Virus record (IMG/VR): IMGVR_UViG_3300044996_000506
Span: 1 to 26,599 of that record
Direction: 5' to 3' (one strand)
Source of the DNA: a virus
Length of the DNA stretch: 26,599 bases
Each line of letters begins with the position of its first letter. The first letter of the stretch is position 1. The position numbers were made by a program, and so were the translations under genes. Shown piece by piece: positions 1,611 through 26,599 of the stretch. Under the pieces are notes generated by a model that saw nothing but the letters and a program-made list of their open reading frames with translations, had not been told where the DNA came from and searched no databases.

Positions 1611-3041
1611 ATGCAACCGTACTGGACGGATGGCGAGCGGGAGGTTCGGCAGGGCGACGCCTGGGCGTTGGCGGGGCAGCTCGCGCCGACGTCCGTGGAC
1701 TGCCTCGTGACCAGCCCGCCGTACTGGGGGCTTCGCGACTACGGCGTTGAGGGGCAGTGCGGCCTGGAGGCGCACCCGCAGGAGTGGCTGGAGAAGATGG
1801 TGGACCTGTTCGTGCGGCTGCGTCCGGCGCTGAAGCCCACGGCAACGCTGTGGGTGAACCTGGGGGATACCTACGGGTTCAGCGGCAAGGGCCAGGGCAA
1901 GGAGCGGTCACCCGGCTTCGACCAGTGGAAGCAGGCCACCAACAGGGGCACCATCGGGGTTGAGGCGCCTGACTGGAACCGCATTCGAGACGGATGGGTG
2001 CGCCCGAAGCAGCTTCTGATGCTCCCGGAGCGGTTCGCCATCACAATGCAGGACGCGGGGTTCCTGCTCCGCAACAAGGTGATCTGGGCGAAGCCTAACG
2101 CGATGCCCTCCAGTGCGCGGGACCGGCTGACCACGAAGCATGAGACGGTGTTCTTCTTCACGCTCGGGCCGAAGTACTACTTCGACCTGGAGGCGGTGAG
2201 GGTGCCATTGGCCCAGGCGTCGGTAACGCGACTGAGCCAGCCGACCTTCGATGACCAGACCGGCGGACCGAAGGACGGGATCAACCCGAACCGCTCCGCG
2301 CGCAAGGCGCTGGTGAACCTACAGAAGCGATACCCGAACGGGCCAGGAGGGTCGCCGCTGCATCGAGGATCGCCGGATGGAGAGAGCCACGGCGGCCAGG
2401 AGCGAGAGAGCAATCCCTATGGAGGCGCGAACCCCGGGGATTTCTGGATGATCCCGCCCGCTCCGTTCCCCGAGGCGCACTTCGCGACGTTCCCGCCGCA
2501 GCTCGTGGAGCGGCCCCTGAAGGCGGGCTGCCCGCGGGAGGTGTGCGTGGAGTGCGGGAAGCCGAATGTGAGGGAGGTCGTCGCCTACGGCGGGGCCATC
2601 GGACGGTCCTGGCATGGGCACGAGTCTGATTTGCGGGTCGGCGCGGGGCAGGCTGCGTGCCTTGCAGAACGGCGGGACTCCCAGGGCCGGGCATACCGGA
2701 GAGAGACCCTCGGCTGGCGACCTACCTGCGACTGCGAGGCGCCCTTCGTGCCGGGCCTGGTGCTCGACCCGTTCCTGGGTAGCGGCACGACGCTCTGTGT
2801 CGCGAAGGAGCTGGGCCTGCGCGGGATCGGCTTCGAGCTGAACCCGACGTACTGCGCGATGGCCGCCCGGCGGATCGCGGACTGGCGGAGGCCGAAGGCG
2901 ATGGTCACCGCCGAAGCCAACGGCCAGGCTACCCTCTTCGACGCCACCGCTGCCGGTCCCGCACATGCGGGAGTGCCGGCGCTCCCGGAGGCGGCGTGCT
3001 CAGTGTTCACTGCTGAGGTGGAGGAGGTAGCGGCAGGATGA
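1611..3041 (+). CDS. Orphan DNA methyltransferase (N4-cytosine/N6-adenine type)
   Basis: Transfers a methyl group from S-adenosylmethionine to an exocyclic amine of a DNA base. The catalytic motif IV is at residues 34-39 (TSPPYW) and the AdoMet-binding motif I near the C-terminus at residues 386-394 (DPFLGSGTT), followed by 'GIGFELNPTYC'. Motif IV before motif I places it in the β class of amino-methyltransferases. Between them are Cys312-x2-Cys315 and Cys373-x-Cys375, a possible zinc-binding insert. No restriction endonuclease is adjacent, so self-protection from host restriction is a likely role. Its last about 30 residues come from a dispersed repeat and a 7-bp tandem array, so the natural C-terminus may be shorter. 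Its stop overlaps the next start (ATGA). It sits between tail genes, an unusual place, and is flanked by direct repeats. Target sequence cannot be read from the protein. Confidence 0.9.
   Translation: MQPYWTDGEREVRQGDAWALAGQLAPTSVDCLVTSPPYWGLRDYGVEGQCGLEAHPQEWLEKMVDLFVRLRPALKPTATLWVNLGDTYGFSGKGQGKERSPGFDQWKQATNRGTIGVEAPDWNRIRDGWVRPKQLLMLPERFAITMQDAGFLLRNKVIWAKPNAMPSSARDRLTTKHETVFFFTLGPKYYFDLEAVRVPLAQASVTRLSQPTFDDQTGGPKDGINPNRSARKALVNLQKRYPNGPGGSPLHRGSPDGESHGGQERESNPYGGANPGDFWMIPPAPFPEAHFATFPPQLVERPLKAGCPREVCVECGKPNVREVVAYGGAIGRSWHGHESDLRVGAGQAACLAERRDSQGRAYRRETLGWRPTCDCEAPFVPGLVLDPFLGSGTTLCVAKELGLRGIGFELNPTYCAMAARRIADWRRPKAMVTAEANGQATLFDATAAGPAHAGVPALPEAACSVFTAEVEEVAAG
2936..2988 (+). repeat. 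Dispersed hairpin repeat, copy B (inside methyltransferase 3' end)
   Basis: Exact copy of 1528-1580. Here it is translated, giving part of the methyltransferase tail (DATAAGPAHAGVPALP). The same peptide pattern recurs in the prohead protease at copy D. Confidence 0.9.
2997..3017 (+). repeat. 7-bp tandem array in methyltransferase 3' end
   Basis: Three 7-bp units: TGCTCAG, TGTTCAC, TGCTGAG. Translated in the last residues of the methyltransferase. The unit is the reverse complement of the GAGCACT type seen at 8311 and 8743. Confidence 0.6.
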
Positions 3042-3306: not shown

Positions 3307-4095
3307 ATGGCCTACAAGGAGTTTGACGGCAAGTTCGTGCCCACCGGCGCGACCAAGGTCGGGAGCACGGCGTTCGACAACGTGTTCGACGGACTGCAGG
3401 CGGAGCTGGAGGAGCGGATGGAGGCGGCGGGGCTGAACGGGATCGAGAGCGGCTGCGCGCTGAGCATCAGCACGACCAATATCTCGATCGCGACGGGCGT
3501 GCTGTGGGTCGAGGGCCGGCGCTTTGAGCCGGCGCCCAGCACGATCGCGTTCACCGCGGGCGACGGCAACAACACCTACTACCTCTATGTCGATCCGACC
3601 GACACCGGGAGCCCGTACAAGAAGTCGACGTCGGATCCCGGAGCCGGGTACCTCGTGCTAGGCACGGTGGCCTGGAACGGGTCGGACACGCTCTCCAGCC
3701 TGGTCGACTACAGCGTGACGGGGATGGAGGCGTGGGAGTTTCACGCCCAGGTCGTGGGGGCGGTGAGCGCCGACACCATCGGCTTCTGCATCCTGCCGTT
3801 CAACGTGTGGATCGAGAGCGTGTCGGCGAGCCTGGAGAACTGCGGCACGGCCGCCGGTCCAAGTTACATCGACGTGCACGGCGGCGCCGGCGGGAGCGAG
3901 GCGACCATCTTCACCACGCAGAGCCGGCGGCCCACGATCGCCCACGACGGCACCGATGGCGCGGTCTACACCAGCGGCGTTCCGGACGGCACGCGGAAGT
4001 TCACGGCGGGGCAGAAGCTGCTGGTGATCGTGGATGCCGCGAGCACCAACGCGGCGGACCTGGCGGTCGTGGTGAAAGGCAGGAGGTACAACTGA
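3307..4095 (+). CDS. Putative tail fibre or minor virion protein
   Basis: A 262-residue protein. The ATG at 3307 is preceded by AGTGAGGA; a GTG three codons earlier is possible but overlaps the previous stop. The N-terminus (MAYKEFDGKF) is followed by a short helical stretch (LQAELEERMEAAGLNG) and then β-rich sequence: 'SISTTNISIATGVLWVEGRRFEPAPS', where a 'GxxWVxGRRF' turn resembles the anchor regions of tail-spike or fibre proteins, then 'NTYYLYVDPTD'. The C-terminal 120 residues are rich in Gly, Thr and Ala and look like a jelly-roll type β-domain. It is the last gene before a strong hairpin, as expected for the end of a tail operon. Receptor binding is an inference from position and composition. 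Confidence 0.55.
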   Translation: MAYKEFDGKFVPTGATKVGSTAFDNVFDGLQAELEERMEAAGLNGIESGCALSISTTNISIATGVLWVEGRRFEPAPSTIAFTAGDGNNTYYLYVDPTDTGSPYKKSTSDPGAGYLVLGTVAWNGSDTLSSLVDYSVTGMEAWEFHAQVVGAVSADTIGFCILPFNVWIESVSASLENCGTAAGPSYIDVHGGAGGSEATIFTTQSRRPTIAHDGTDGAVYTSGVPDGTRKFTAGQKLLVIVDAASTNAADLAVVVKGRRYN

Positions 4096-8778: not shown

Positions 8779-9743
8779 GCGGCAAGGGCAGGCGAGCGCG
8801 TCGAGACGGCGTAACGGCCTGCGACGCCACCGCTGCCGGCAAGGGTGCCGGCGCTCCCGGCGGCTGGACGTCGATCCCGCTGCCGCTCGAGCTGGGGGAG
8901 GACGCGGGCCGCCCGGCCGCGGTGGAGAACGTCGCCGCGGCCGGGCAGCTCGCCCGGAGGGACGAGGGCGAGCTGCGGGAGCGGATGCGCCGGGCGGAGG
9001 AGGAGCAGCGGCGGCAGGCGGAGCGCCGCCGCGAGATCCAACGGGCGAACCTGCAGCCCGACCAGGCGCCGGTCCGGCACGGGGTGCACGCGCGACCGGG
9101 CGCCTACATGCTGTGCGATCGGTGCCCGATCCGGGAGCAGTGCGAGGAGTACGAGCCGGGCGAACGCTGCGGGCCCGAGCAGGAGTATGTCGAGCGGCGG
9201 ACCCGCGAGCTGTACGCGGTCGAGTGGATCGAGCCGCAGCTCGATGGGCCCACGGTGAAGTTCCTGGTGTGGCTGGAGGTGCGGATGGAACGGGCCGCGC
9301 GCTACATCGGGATGCGGGGCGAGATCGAGGGCGGGGCGTACCTGCCCGTCGCGAAGGACGTGCAGGGGCTGCACAACAGTTGGCTGCGGACGCTGGAGAA
9401 GCTGGGCTTGACCCCCGAGCGGCGCAAGGCCATGAGCGAGACCGGCCAGGCGGGCTTCGGCGATCTCGCGGCGGCGCTGCTGGGGATTGCACGGGAACGG
9501 GCCGGGGAGCCGGAGGGCGGGGGCGCGGAGGTGGTGGAGGCGGAGTTCACGGTGACGGGTGAGACGGGCGACGGGCTGAACGACGAGGACGCGCCGCGCA
9601 CGCCGCGGCACGAAGAGGGCGCGGGTCTGGGAGACGACGCGGAACCCGCGACGGAGCCTGAAGGAGGCTGGGGAGATGAAGGGCCTGCCGACAACGAGGA
9701 TCCCCTACGCGACACACGCCTGGGGGATCGCGACGGGCTGTAG
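8775..9743 (+). CDS. Candidate small terminase subunit (P27-like)
   Basis: A 322-residue protein. Small terminase subunits recognise phage DNA and load the large subunit. Residues 56-92 are a charged helix ('RRDEGELRERMRRAEEEQRR'). Residues 114-132 carry Cys114-x2-Cys117-x5-Cys123-x8-Cys132, a possible metal site. Residues about 160-230 contain 'LPVAKDVQGLHNSWLRTLEK' followed by LGLTPERRKAM, the conserved end motif of P27-family small terminases. The acidic C-terminal 80 residues are low in complexity. The gene lies upstream of the large subunit, with four genes between, and this gap is larger than usual. Its N-terminal 30 residues come from a dispersed repeat and the start codon lies in a tandem array with no ribosome binding site, so the true start may be internal. 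Confidence 0.5.
   Translation: MSGKGRRARRDGVTACDATAAGKGAGAPGGWTSIPLPLELGEDAGRPAAVENVAAAGQLARRDEGELRERMRRAEEEQRRQAERRREIQRANLQPDQAPVRHGVHARPGAYMLCDRCPIREQCEEYEPGERCGPEQEYVERRTRELYAVEWIEPQLDGPTVKFLVWLEVRMERAARYIGMRGEIEGGAYLPVAKDVQGLHNSWLRTLEKLGLTPERRKAMSETGQAGFGDLAAALLGIARERAGEPEGGGAEVVEAEFTVTGETGDGLNDEDAPRTPRHEEGAGLGDDAEPATEPEGGWGDEGPADNEDPLRDTRLGDRDGL
8792..8866 (+). repeat. Dispersed hairpin repeat, copy C (variant)
   Basis: Aligns with 1501-1584. Shares TAACGGCCT, then CGACGCCACCGCTGCCGG and TGCCGGCGCTCCCGGCGGC; the central hairpin of copies A and B is replaced by CAAGGG. Sixteen of the first 20 bases also match copy A. It is translated near the N-terminus of the small terminase candidate. 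Confidence 0.75.
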
Positions 9744-10635
9744 CGAGGGGCTGCCCTGTGCCGATCGGTGCTGGGCCAAAGCCGATGCGGCGCGCCTGGC
9801 CAACAACCCCCGCGAGGAGATCGCGCGGCGGTATCGGGGGTTGGTGGCGCCCGCCGGGGAGAGCAGCTGCCGGCCTTACGAACGAGCGGAGCCGGAGGGG
9901 CGCTGGGCGTGGACCGGACGCATCAACGAGTTCCCCGAGTTCCTCGAGGCGCCGGGTCGGCTGCGCGATCCGGCGGTGATCTTTGTGGGGACTCATACGG
10001 ACCTGGGGTTGGTGAGCACGGAGCTGAAGTGCAGGATCTGGGGCGCGATGGAGGGCTGCCCCCGGCATGAGTTCCTGGTGGTCACGAAGCGGTGGTATTG
10101 GCTCTCCAAGGCCGTCGTAGTGTGGAGTGGCCGCGAGGTTTGGGGCGCGCTGCCGAACGTGACGGTGTGCCTGTCGTGCAGCACGCAGGAGCAGTTGGAT
10201 GCGGAGATGACGCGGGCAGGCGGAGAGTTCCACTATGCCTGGCGCGGCCGCCTCGCGGCGTTCCTCGAGCCGCAGCTCGAGCCCATCGACATCCGGCGGT
10301 GGGTGCGCCGGCTGGACTGGGTCGTGCAGGGCTGCGAGAGTCTCGGACGGGGGACGCCGGGGAGGCCGTTCGCGGAGACGTGGGCCTGGGAGACCTTGCG
10401 CGCCTGCCGAGACGCGGGCGTGCCCTACTGGCTGAAGCAGATTCCGGGGTGGTGGTGCAGCAAGTGTCGGGAGTGGACCCTCACGCAGAAGGGCTGTCCC
10501 GAATGTTGCGGGCGGCAAGCACTCCGGTTGATCCACGCCCCGAGGCTGGACGCGTACCGGGACTGGCAGCAGGCGCCGGAGCGGATCGCGAACATCCTCG
10601 AGGCGCGCGGAAAGCGGTTAGAGGGGCAGCCATGA
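9676..10635 (+). CDS. Phage Gp37/Gp68 family protein (DUF5131)
   Basis: A 319-residue protein. The N-terminus has the family signature: 'WGIATGCSEGLPCADRCWAK' with Cys22-x5-Cys28-x3-Cys32, the place where members carry a radical-SAM-like cysteine cluster. Near the end 'WVVQGCESLGRGTPGRPFAE' and 'TLRACRDAGVPYWLKQI' match the conserved family block (usually WV-x-GGES ... AGVPF-x-KQ). An extra four-Cys ribbon follows (Cys-x2-Cys ... Cys-x2-Cys in GWWCSKCREW and KGCPECCGR). The biochemical role is not established to my knowledge; a nucleic-acid modification enzyme is a reasonable guess. It overlaps the upstream gene by 68 bases and has AAGGAGG eight bases before the ATG. Confidence 0.8.
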   Translation: MKGLPTTRIPYATHAWGIATGCSEGLPCADRCWAKADAARLANNPREEIARRYRGLVAPAGESSCRPYERAEPEGRWAWTGRINEFPEFLEAPGRLRDPAVIFVGTHTDLGLVSTELKCRIWGAMEGCPRHEFLVVTKRWYWLSKAVVVWSGREVWGALPNVTVCLSCSTQEQLDAEMTRAGGEFHYAWRGRLAAFLEPQLEPIDIRRWVRRLDWVVQGCESLGRGTPGRPFAETWAWETLRACRDAGVPYWLKQIPGWWCSKCREWTLTQKGCPECCGRQALRLIHAPRLDAYRDWQQAPERIANILEARGKRLEGQP

Positions 10636-17222: not shown

Positions 17223-18649
17223 ACGAGACACCGACGGCGGTGCAGGCGTTTCGGCGGGAGCTGGTGGGGGGGCTGGAGGATCCCGGGGTCAGGAACGCCC
17301 TGATGGGCTGGTACCAGGCGATGGATGACAACGCCCGGCGCGAGTGGATGCGCCAGGCGTTGGAGCACGAGTTCGACGAGAAGCTGCTGCCCAAGATCGA
17401 GGCCCTGGTTCAGGAGCGGGCGGCGCGCCAGCTGGCGGAGGCGCAGTACGTGCCGCCGGACCGCCGGGCGCTGCGCTACATGGAGCAGCCGCTGAGCGAG
17501 CGGCAGCTGAAGTATCCGGCGGACGGCGACGAGCTGATCCTCCGGCAGCAGCAGCTGCACGACGATCTATACTTCCTGAGCGAGCTGAGCCCGCGCGGGA
17601 TCCGCGCGAACGTCATCCGGCGCTACCTGGAGTGGATCGACGCGCCGGATCACATCCGCGCAGCCCTCACCTCCACCACGTCCGGCGCCGCGAGCCAGTG
17701 GGTGCCGACGATCCTGAGCGCGGACTTCTACACGCTCATTCAGGGGCAGCTCGCCGTCGCGGCGCTGTTCCCCGAGTTCGAGATGGTCGGGGGCACGGTG
17801 GACGTGCCCACCGCCCTGACCCGCACGCGGCCGTACCTGAAGACGGAGGGGTCGGCGGTCACCGAGGACAGCACGCTCGCCTCCGGCAAGGTCACGTTCG
17901 CCGCCAAGACGCTGGGCGCGTTCCGGGACTTCACGCGGGAGCTGGACGAGGACTCGATGCTGACGATCCTCCCGCTCCTGCGGGACGCCCTGGGCGGGTC
18001 GATCGCGTACGGCATCGACCTGGTGATGCTGGACGGGGACACCACCGCCACCCACATGGACACCGACATCGAGGCCCTGGGGGCGAGCGACTGCCGGACG
18101 GCGTGGATCGGCCTGCGGAAGAAGGCGCTGACCAACACCGGCGCCAACGCGGACCTCTCGACCTGGAACCTGGACGCCTTCAACGCGATCCCGGCCGCGA
18201 TGGGAAAGTACGCGAACCCCAGCGAGCTGGCGATCATCGTGGGCAACAAGGTCTTCTGGAAGCACCTGCCCACGACGATCGACAACTCCACGAACAAGAA
18301 CAGCGTGTTCCTCCCCGGCACGTTCGGCGGCAGCATGGGCCCGGTCGTCAACGGGTTCACGGGCATCCGCCTGATGGGCGCGCCGATCGTCTACGCGCCG
18401 CTGCTGCGCGAGGACGTGGATGCCACCGGCGTCAACGGCGCCTCGGGCAACACCTACACCTACCTGGTCGTGGTGAACGTCCGCGCCTGGCGCCGGGGCA
18501 CCCGGCGCGAGGTGACGGTGCAGTACGCGGACAGCGATGCGGCCTCGATCAAGGCGGGCACGGCGACGGTGGCGGCGAGCTGGCGCGGGACGGCGATGCA
18601 CATGGAGGGGTCGGGCCTGACGACCGCGATCGGCTACAAGATGAGCTGA
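17219..18649 (+). CDS. Major capsid protein, HK97 fold
   Basis: A 476-residue protein that forms the icosahedral shell. Residues 1-140 are helical and charged ('LMGWYQAMDDNARREWMRQA', 'LPKIEALVQERAARQLAEAQ'), an N-terminal arm or scaffolding segment that the upstream protease may remove. The fold starts near 'AALTSTTSGAASQWVPTILS', with the E-loop region around 'TALTRTRPYLKTEGSAVTED', then 'GKVTFAAKTLGAFRDFTREL' and the P-domain 'ALGGSIAYGIDLVMLDGD'. 'PSELAIIVGNKVFWKHLP' and 'GIRLMGAPIVYAP' match the late A-domain strands. It is the last of the protease-capsid pair, begins in the ATGA overlap, and is followed by a repeat-rich gap. Confidence 0.9.
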   Translation: MNETPTAVQAFRRELVGGLEDPGVRNALMGWYQAMDDNARREWMRQALEHEFDEKLLPKIEALVQERAARQLAEAQYVPPDRRALRYMEQPLSERQLKYPADGDELILRQQQLHDDLYFLSELSPRGIRANVIRRYLEWIDAPDHIRAALTSTTSGAASQWVPTILSADFYTLIQGQLAVAALFPEFEMVGGTVDVPTALTRTRPYLKTEGSAVTEDSTLASGKVTFAAKTLGAFRDFTRELDEDSMLTILPLLRDALGGSIAYGIDLVMLDGDTTATHMDTDIEALGASDCRTAWIGLRKKALTNTGANADLSTWNLDAFNAIPAAMGKYANPSELAIIVGNKVFWKHLPTTIDNSTNKNSVFLPGTFGGSMGPVVNGFTGIRLMGAPIVYAPLLREDVDATGVNGASGNTYTYLVVVNVRAWRRGTRREVTVQYADSDAASIKAGTATVAASWRGTAMHMEGSGLTTAIGYKMS

Positions 18650-21088: not shown

Positions 21089-22306
21089 GTGGCCATCTGG
21101 ATGCCCGGGCAGGTCGTGAGCGTGGAGCAGTGGCGGTATCACGAGTGGGATGCCGTCGGGTGGCTGCAGGAGATCGGCAGCCCGCGCGCCGCCGACACCC
21201 CGCAGCTCGGCGTCTGGTGCAACACCCACGGCCAGGCCAACGGGATGGACCCGCGGATCCTGCTGACGATGCTGGAGAAAGAACAGAGCTTCGTCACCCG
21301 GGGCCAGCTGAGCGCCCACCGGCGGGACTGGGCGATGGGCTTCGGCGTGTACCCCGACGGCACGCACCTGTTGACCTGGCGCGGCGAGCCGAACGTCGGT
21401 CCCGAGCAGCAGATCCGGCACGCGGCCATCCGCCTGCGGGAGCTGGCAAACTATGCGGACCCACACCTGACCCCGAACATGGGCTTCCCGCTGGAGAACG
21501 GTCCGACCCGCGCCCTGTATACCTACAACCCGAGCGTGGCCGGCAACTACAACTTCTGGGTGATCTATCACCGCTGGTTCGGCGACGGCGGCGGCACGGC
21601 CGAGCCCGCGCCGGCGACCCAGCCGACGGCGGACCCGAAGCCGCCGCGGGCGACCAAGTCCGACGTGGCCAACGTGGCCCACGCGGCGGTGGAGGCGCAT
21701 CGGGCGGGGCGGCGGACCGTCACGCTCCACGGCGTGACGTTCGATCTGGCGGCGCTCGGGTGGTGCGGGCGCTTTGTGCGCCAGTGCTATGCGGCGGCCG
21801 TGCGGCAGCACGACCCGGGCTTTGACGAGTTCGGTTTCGGGTGGCTGGCCCCCGACGCCTGGCAGGCGGAGATCAAGCTGCGGGCCCAGGGCTATGAGAT
21901 CCCGAGCTCGCAGGCCAAACCGGGCGACATCGTGGGGCTGAACCGGGGGCTGACGGCCGCGAGTCACGGCCACATCGGCATCTGGCTGGGCGATACCATC
22001 GCCGAGAATACCAGCCGCGAGGGCTACGGCACGGTCGAAACGCCGGTCGCCACGCTGGCCCACCGGATCAGCGGACACTTCAGCGTGCTGCCGGGCGGGA
22101 AGCTCGACGTTCCCGGCGTCGCGGTGGTCTACCCCAGCGACATCGAGCACGCGCAGCGCGTGGACTGCAACCCCTACATCGGCACGGACGGCCGGATGTA
22201 CGCCCAGGTGGCGCCGCTGGTGGCCGCCCTGGGCAAGGCCGGGCAGTACCGCGAGGTGACGATGGGGGAGCGGCGGGTCAAGCGGTACTACGTGCAGGAT
22301 GCGTGA
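21089..22306 (+). CDS. Two-domain endolysin (transglycosylase-like plus NlpC/CHAP-like)
   Basis: A 405-residue peptidoglycan hydrolase. Residues 40-165 look like a lysozyme-fold transglycosylase: 'GMDPRILLTMLEKEQSFVTR' with Glu63 or Glu65 as the likely acid, 'WAMGFGVYPDGTH', then 'TRALYTYNPSVAGNYNFWVI'. A Pro/Thr linker covers 168-190. Residues 195-345 are a cysteine peptidase of the CHAP or NlpC/P60 kind: 'LGWCGRFVRQCYAAAVRQ' with Cys226, 'KPGDIVGLNR', and 'SHGHIGIWLGDTIAENTS' with His295. The last 50 residues resemble a small wall-associated module ('PYIGTDGRMYAQVAPLVAAL'). No signal peptide, so release needs a holin. Start GTG 21089 after TGAGGTGA. Confidence 0.8.
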   Translation: MAIWMPGQVVSVEQWRYHEWDAVGWLQEIGSPRAADTPQLGVWCNTHGQANGMDPRILLTMLEKEQSFVTRGQLSAHRRDWAMGFGVYPDGTHLLTWRGEPNVGPEQQIRHAAIRLRELANYADPHLTPNMGFPLENGPTRALYTYNPSVAGNYNFWVIYHRWFGDGGGTAEPAPATQPTADPKPPRATKSDVANVAHAAVEAHRAGRRTVTLHGVTFDLAALGWCGRFVRQCYAAAVRQHDPGFDEFGFGWLAPDAWQAEIKLRAQGYEIPSSQAKPGDIVGLNRGLTAASHGHIGIWLGDTIAENTSREGYGTVETPVATLAHRISGHFSVLPGGKLDVPGVAVVYPSDIEHAQRVDCNPYIGTDGRMYAQVAPLVAALGKAGQYREVTMGERRVKRYYVQDA

Positions 22307-24931: not shown

Positions 24932-25768
24932 ATGGCGGTCGAGACCGGAATTGCCACCTATGCCGCGACGGGCGGAAGTTACGCGAACCCTCTGCACCTG
25001 GTGCGCCCGGGCACGCGCTGGGGGCAGGGGGCGCCGAGCCAATCGCGGGAGGCGCTGAGCGGGGCGGTGAAGGTGGGCGGCGCGATCGTGGAGGTCGCGC
25101 GGGTGCAGCTGTTCCCGGTGGACGCGAACTGCCTGATCGACAAGGTCCTGCGCGCCACGCTGGGGGCCCTGCCGCCGGACGCGATCCTGGAGCTGGGGAA
25201 CAGCACCAAGTCGATCAAGGACACGGGCTGGAAGTGCAACGCCTGCGAGATCGAGGTTGAGGCCAACGGGGCCCTGCAGCTGACCTATGAGTTCGTGAAC
25301 CCCACCAAGCCGACCTACTCCACGGGCGGATCGCCGGGCACCCTGGTGAAGACGACGTTTGAGTGGTGGCGCGGGAGCGTCACCACCGGGGGCGCCAACA
25401 AGAAGGCGCGGCGCATCCGCTTCCGGATCGGCAACAACATCCAGGCGGCGCATGATCTGGGCAGCAAGGCGAGCAACAAGCGGTACCCGACGAGCCTGGC
25501 CGTGGGGGCGATGACGGTGGAGGCCGAGGTCGAGTACATGGACGATCCCGGCCACGACACCAGCGCGGATGAGCTGCCGACCAGCACGATCGTCCTGACC
25601 GCGGTCAACAACGCCGGCACCCCCAAGACGATCACCGCCACGGCCACGAGCATGAAGGTTCCGCAGTGGTACTTTGAGCCCGGCGGGGCCTCGCAGTTCA
25701 ACCGCTACACCGTGCCCTACGAGCAGGACGACAACGACCTGACGGGGTTCACGCTGGCGATTGCGTAG
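24932..25768 (+). CDS. Major tail protein (tail tube)
   Basis: A 278-residue protein that polymerises into the tail tube. 'AVETGIATYAATGGSYANPL' is the N-terminal arm, 'GAIVEVARVQLFPVDANCLI' and 'GWKCNACEIEVEANGALQLT' carry the β-sandwich strands, 'YEFVNPTKPTYSTGG' follows, and the C-terminal part ('LAVGAMTVEAEVEYMDD', 'SMKVPQWYFEPGGASQFNRY') is another β-domain. Polarity, lack of sheath gene nearby and the frameshift gene right after it support a siphovirus tube. GGAGG lies eight bases before the start. Confidence 0.8.
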   Translation: MAVETGIATYAATGGSYANPLHLVRPGTRWGQGAPSQSREALSGAVKVGGAIVEVARVQLFPVDANCLIDKVLRATLGALPPDAILELGNSTKSIKDTGWKCNACEIEVEANGALQLTYEFVNPTKPTYSTGGSPGTLVKTTFEWWRGSVTTGGANKKARRIRFRIGNNIQAAHDLGSKASNKRYPTSLAVGAMTVEAEVEYMDDPGHDTSADELPTSTIVLTAVNNAGTPKTITATATSMKVPQWYFEPGGASQFNRYTVPYEQDDNDLTGFTLAIA

Positions 25769-25804
25769 CGGCGGCCGTCGAGCCGCCGTAGGGAGGTTGC
25801 GGGG

Positions 25805-26200
25805 ATGCAGGTCCGACTGGAGACGCGGGTGGAGGTCGACGGGGCGACCTTCTGGTTCGGGGCGACCGACCGGACGCTGGCGCCGCTGCTGGTGCTGTTC
25901 CGGGCGCACCGGGAGGAGACCGGGCAGGAGAGGATCGACGAGGGGCAGCTGCCGGCGCACATGATCGCGCCGGCCTGCGCGCTGTTCGTGGAGGGGGTCC
26001 GGCGCTGGGAGGGCGTGATGGACGCGGAGGGGCGCCCGCTCGAGTGCACGGCGGCGAGTGTGGCAGACTTCCCCACGCTGCAGAAGATCCAGGTCGCGGC
26101 GGCCTATCTGAACACCTGGGCGGCCCTGCAGGGAAACGGGTCCGGGTCCGGAGAGCGGGGTACGACGCCCACGCTCCCCGGACCAACCTCGGGAGACTGA
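25805..26200 (+). CDS. Tail assembly chaperone, G-type short form
   Basis: A 131-residue protein, product of normal decoding. The N-terminal 110 residues ('DGATFWFGATDRTLAPLLVL', 'PAHMIAPACALFVEGVRRWE', 'QKIQVAAAYLNTWAAL') resemble the G proteins that coat the tape measure protein during tail assembly. The last 20 residues (GNGSGSGERGTTPTLPG) are flexible and encoded by the frameshift region. Chaperones of this type are made in excess over the frameshifted form. Start ATG 25805, preceded by GGGAGG about nine bases upstream. Confidence 0.8.
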   Translation: MQVRLETRVEVDGATFWFGATDRTLAPLLVLFRAHREETGQERIDEGQLPAHMIAPACALFVEGVRRWEGVMDAEGRPLECTAASVADFPTLQKIQVAAAYLNTWAALQGNGSGSGERGTTPTLPGPTSGD

Positions 26201-26415
26201 CCTACAGCCACGACGAAGCGCAGGCCCTCTATGAGATCGAGCATCCGGAGGGCCTGTCCGTGCCGGAGGAGGCCCTGGCGCCGTACTTGTGCGAGACGCT
26301 GGGCCTGCAGGTGAGCGAATTGGCGCGGTGGGACTGGAACGAGGTGGTGGTGCACGTGGCCTGGGCGGAGGGGCGGAGTCTGGCCGGGTGGATGCAGCAG
26401 CACGTCAACGGCTGA
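25805..26415 (+). CDS. Tail assembly chaperone, GT-type -1 frameshift product
   Basis: Joins the first 111 residues of the G-type protein with 92 residues read in the -1 frame from 26137 to the stop at 26413-26415, total 203. The extension has its own conserved look: 'LTYSHDEAQALYEIEHPEGL', 'ALAPYLCETLGLQVSELARW' and 'VHVAWAEGRSLAGWMQQH', a helical domain that in lambda (the T part) contacts the tail tube protein. The frame has no ribosome binding site of its own, and its first in-frame ATG (26044) lies inside the G reading frame. The frameshift signal at 26131-26184 explains how it is made. Confidence 0.85.
26131..26184 (+). promoter_or_regulatory. Programmed -1 ribosomal frameshift signal
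   Basis: Slippery heptamer G GGA AAC at 26131-26137, in register with the G reading frame (codons GGA and AAC). Seven bases later a stem forms: left arm GGTCCGGAGAGCG at 26145-26157, right arm CGCTCCCCGGACC at 26172-26184, 13 bp with one mismatch and a 14-base loop. Lambda G/T uses GGGAAAG, one base different. Heptamer, spacing and stem all fit the class. Confidence 0.9.
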
Positions 26416-26442: not shown

Positions 26443-26599
26443 GTGGCCCTCGATCTGAAGATCATCATCTCGGCCGTCGAGCAGATTGATGCCGCGTTCC
26501 GGAAGACCGAGGCCGGGCTCGACGGGTTGGCCAGCAAGGCCGGGGTTGTCGGGGGCGCGATGACGGCGGCCGGCGCCGCCATCATCGGGGCGTTCGCGG
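26443..26599 (+). CDS. Tape measure protein, 5' part only
   Basis: Starts at GTG 26443, with AGGTGG about eight bases upstream, and runs off the right edge of the window. The 52 residues seen (MALDLKIIISAVEQIDAAFR then KTEAGLDGLASKAGVVGGAM and TAAGAAIIGAFA) have the typical beginning of tape measure proteins: amphipathic helix, short linker, then a Gly/Ala-rich hydrophobic stretch. It lies directly after the G/GT chaperones, as in nearly all siphoviruses. The protein sets tail length and is ejected during infection; the remainder is outside the window. Confidence 0.8.
   Translation, partial: MALDLKIIISAVEQIDAAFRKTEAGLDGLASKAGVVGGAMTAAGAAIIGAFA

Follow-up and report, generated by a model that had tools for sequence, protein, structure and literature searches.

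Between the genes of a probable tail tube protein and a tape measure protein of an uncultured phage lie two overlapping open reading frames, the second in the -1 frame, which raises the question of whether they form a frameshift cassette for tail assembly chaperones of the G/GT type known from phage lambda. The window, i.e., the whole stretch of DNA analyzed, is an IMG/VR viral contig of 26,599 bases with 70% GC, in which family matches revealed genes for terminase, portal, capsid and tail completion. The features of the tail region described below are located on the plus strand. The probable tail tube (major tail) protein gene (24932–25768) was recognized by its position 5' of G and by a match to Phage_tube_2 [PF18906] that lies under the Pfam cut-off (E = 0.002). 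The tape measure gene (26443–26599) is represented by its 5' part, being cut by the end of the window; it matches phrog_3981 (E = 0.015), and its start is similar to that of the tape measure protein of L003, a related viral contig. Both matches are weak in the window, but in L003 the tape measure protein is matched strongly. Another contig, L004, is 100% identical to the window over the portal region and reaches 8.8 kb further left. Since the left end of L004 consists of tape measure-like sequence, the order of the tail module looks usual, and we infer that the ends of the two contigs adjoin.

Gene G (25805–26200) starts with ATG at 25805 and encodes a 131 aa protein in frame 0, assigned as a tail assembly chaperone through its links to the G proteins of L003 and of a second relative, L009. 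The slippery heptamer G_GGA_AAC is located at 26131–26137, and its codons GGA (26132–26134) and AAC (26135–26137) are those read in frame 0, so that the register given in the original prediction is correct. By itself the word means little, because GGGAAAC occurs four times in the window against 2.3 copies expected; in total, the main frames contain 15 in-register heptamers of any kind. When the last 25 codons of G were resampled synonymously, an X_XXY_YYZ heptamer of any sort appeared in 41% of trials and an in-register one with A or T at Y in 10%. A slippery word of some sort is thus common by chance at this GC content, and one might suppose that the heptamer and the stem described below coincide fortuitously, G being made alone and the -1 frame left untranslated. 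This is hardly credible, given that past the stop of G the base composition by codon position in the -1 frame is that of a genuine gene, and that this frame is also conserved in L003.

Downstream structures are common, though not universal, in G/GT-type cassettes. Here a 7 nt spacer (GGGTCCG, 26138–26144) separates the heptamer from a predicted stimulatory stem-loop at 26145–26184, with arms at 26145–26157 and 26172–26184. The 13 bp stem with one mismatch that had been proposed was recovered as 12 pairs with a single A-C mismatch, to which four inner pairs with one bulge are added around a loop of 5 nt; the proposed spacer of seven bases was likewise found. The minimum free energy of the region 26138–26187 is -31.5 kcal/mol (z = -3.3), and one of 200 shuffled sequences folded as well. 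Equally strong downstream folding was found at 98 of 7246 codon positions, and a stem of at least 12 pairs starting 5–8 nt downstream at about 0.9% of random places.

The first codon after the slip is CGG at 26137, from which the T region extends for 92 codons in the -1 frame to the TGA at 26413–26415 (26137–26415). The predicted fusion therefore comprises 111 + 92 = 203 residues, with the junction ...LQGN-RVRVR..., and both its length and the open frame to 26415 agree, at the level of sequence, with what was originally predicted. The open -1 frame under G is uninformative, because no stop codon occurs in this frame anywhere from 25804 to 26413, at 70% GC. More can be learned from the G+C content of the three codon positions. 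Before the heptamer, it amounts to 0.73/0.48/0.96 in frame 0. In the overlap, the values are 0.76/0.62/0.86 for the -1 frame vs. 0.62/0.86/0.71 for frame 0, and beyond the stop of G the -1 frame shows 0.72/0.41/0.93, like other genes of the window. Thus, the coding signal changes from frame 0 to -1 at the heptamer.

To characterize relatives of this locus, we searched viral contigs with G, A1, the tail tube protein, the G protein of L003 and the tail tube protein of L003 as queries. Among viral contigs, relatives of G were revealed in L003 and L009 only, both highly divergent, and none was revealed among genome contigs. A search of the phage collection with the G proteins of the window and of L009 gave no significant match. 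Three further contigs related through their portal proteins (L005–L007, 22–24% identity) were left out of the slip-site comparison.

L003 is a viral contig of 52.6 kb whose G protein is 36–45% identical to that of the window and in which the G/T organization is kept. Its -1-frame protein is homologous to T of the window; the alignment of the two is gap-free, beginning with the first residue read past the slip and continuing through the motif R.R.R.AGY...APR.N.GRL. At the exact position aligned with GGGAAAC, L003 carries G_GGG_GAA.

This alignment bears on the possibility that translation of T starts internally, at GTG 26044 or GTG 26260, giving a separate protein without any frameshift. In favor of this, GGAGGGG lies 11 nt upstream of the former and GGAGG 8 nt upstream of the latter; however, GGAGG is common at 70% GC. 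A start at 26260 would omit the segment AGY...APR.N.GRL, in which T is most conserved between the window and L003, and the L003 codon aligned to it is not a start. GTG 26044 lies deep within G, where the codon signal is that of frame 0. Between the heptamer and 26260 the -1 frame contains no ATG, GTG or TTG, and in L003 no start codon was found between the last -1 stop and position 3513. Because neither the window nor L003 has a start codon immediately 5' of the conserved N-terminus of T, internal initiation is very unlikely, and a -1 frameshift remains the preferred reading.

In the more remote L009, the heptamer T_TTT_TTC was found in register at 1728–1734, within the G/T overlap, and is followed after 6 nt by a perfect hairpin of seven pairs. 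The stems of the window, L003 and L009 have 12, 8 and 7 pairs, respectively, and each of them starts 6–7 nt past the heptamer; stems matching these were found at about 0.9%, 6% and 9% of random places. Individually, the stems of L003 and L009 are weak (folding z-scores from -1.3 to -2.3). Comparison of the three loci revealed that the slippery word itself differs (GGGAAAC, GGGGGAA and TTTTTTC), while its place and its distance to the stem are constant. Conservation of the heptamer in related phages had been proposed as a check; what is conserved is the presence of a slippery word at the site in both L003 and L009, but not GGGAAAC itself.

The same comparison speaks to whether the frame change in what is really a single G-T gene could result from mutation or from an error in sequencing or assembly. 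In favor of this, the G/T region is covered by a single contig, as the identical contig L004 stops short of it. However, in L003 and L009 the frame likewise changes by -1 at this place, in sequences that differ, and an error would not produce a slippery word that is in register and followed by a stem at the right position. Since the relatives share the frame change, we regard an artifact as highly improbable and a genuine -1 overlap as the appropriate reading.

The assignment of the two proteins to known chaperone families is less direct. Neither G nor the 92-residue T of the window gave a family match in Pfam, PHROGs or NCBIfam, so that the chaperone-like domain originally attributed to the -1 product was not recovered and T is linked only via L003. 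The G protein of the window was linked to that of L009 by hhalign (E = 6e-8), and the latter matches the tail assembly chaperone family phrog_313 (E = 3.5e-12), to which G of L003 shows a weak match (E = 0.036). T of L009 matches Phage_TAC_18 [PF23812] with E = 6e-11; it gave nothing against profile A2 and has no detectable homology to T of the window. In a fold search with a modest model of G (pLDDT 66), the best PDB match was the HK97 tail assembly chaperone 2ob9, which is not significant (E = 0.72); the viral list of this search repeatedly contains entries named as tail assembly chaperones.

The combination of heptamer and stem, together with the gene position and the relatives, is well past chance. 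The site is very probably a standard tail assembly chaperone -1 frameshift cassette of tailed phages, in which we infer slippage from the sequence data, and the proposed likeness to lambda G/GT is supported by the gene order, the switch of frame in codon composition, and the -1 overlap and slippery words in L003 and L009. Most ribosomes would read G to its stop at 26198–26200 and produce the 131 aa chaperone. A minority would pause at the hairpin located 7 nt 3' of the heptamer and slip back by one base, the tRNAs on GGA and AAC re-pairing on GGG and AAA; their translation would then proceed in the -1 frame as far as 26415, yielding the 203 aa G-T fusion as a minor product. By analogy with lambda, G may coat the tape measure protein while T may recruit tail tube subunits.

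The likeness to lambda G/GT concerns the gene position, the -1 direction, the slippery word of the same X_XXY_YYZ type at the end of G, and a short and a long product, which are predicted here. The window differs from lambda in having AAC instead of AAG in the A site, in the predicted strong hairpin 7 nt downstream, and in proteins that, unlike those of lambda, lack sequence matches to known chaperone families. The role of GGGAAAC in tail chaperone genes is already known and is not new: the same heptamer is reported for genes of the same role in different phages, namely Caulobacter phage Colossus (PMC3556154), Burkholderia phage KL1 (PMC3483164) and haloarchaeal virus HCTV-1 (PMC5009743). In its word and gene role the L003 site, in contrast to the window with GGGAAAC, corresponds to the "fivetwo" slippery word GGGGGAA of actinobacteriophage tail assembly chaperones (PMC10885494). 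The SEA-PHAGES data contain about a thousand "fivetwo" motifs, every one of them GGGGGAA, and the glutamate tRNA requires just a G-U pair to re-pair on GGA (PMC10885494).

In E. coli, G_GG.A_AA.C is a word of low efficiency, yet in IS elements it ranks among the more frequent ones (PMC4066793). In lambda, the molar ratio of G to GT is about 30:1, and both proteins join the tape measure and tube proteins (PMC5009743). The combination of a low-efficiency word and a strong stem fits a product that, as in lambda, would be needed at a few percent. The unusual efficiency originally suggested for the AAC variant finds no support in these data. A more speculative and rather unlikely alternative is that the host ribosome, unlike that of E. 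coli, slips efficiently on AAC, which would bring the G:GT ratio far from that of lambda, with the slippery word freely exchanged between relatives and its distance to the stem retained.

The locus is a new instance of a known mechanism and leaves the knowledge of frameshifting unchanged. It allows the 203 aa fusion of this uncultured high-GC phage to be annotated correctly, the chaperone family being otherwise unassigned, and provides a small example of the exchange of slippery words at a fixed site.

Several other features of the window should be noted. The lambda slippery word GGGAAAG was found in register at 18202–18208 in the capsid gene; it is not followed by a strong structure and probably occurs there by chance. 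A 405 aa protein encoded at 21089–22306 gave a weak match to a CHAP (lysin-like) domain and is located among head-tail connector genes, where a lysin would not be expected. A DUF5131 protein (E = 2e-23) is encoded at 9676–10635. Finally, a DNA methylase (N6_N4_Mtase, 476 aa) is encoded at 1611–3041 and has a counterpart in the phage of L003 (L014; an open frame of 472 aa); therefore, the two phages may share more than tail genes.
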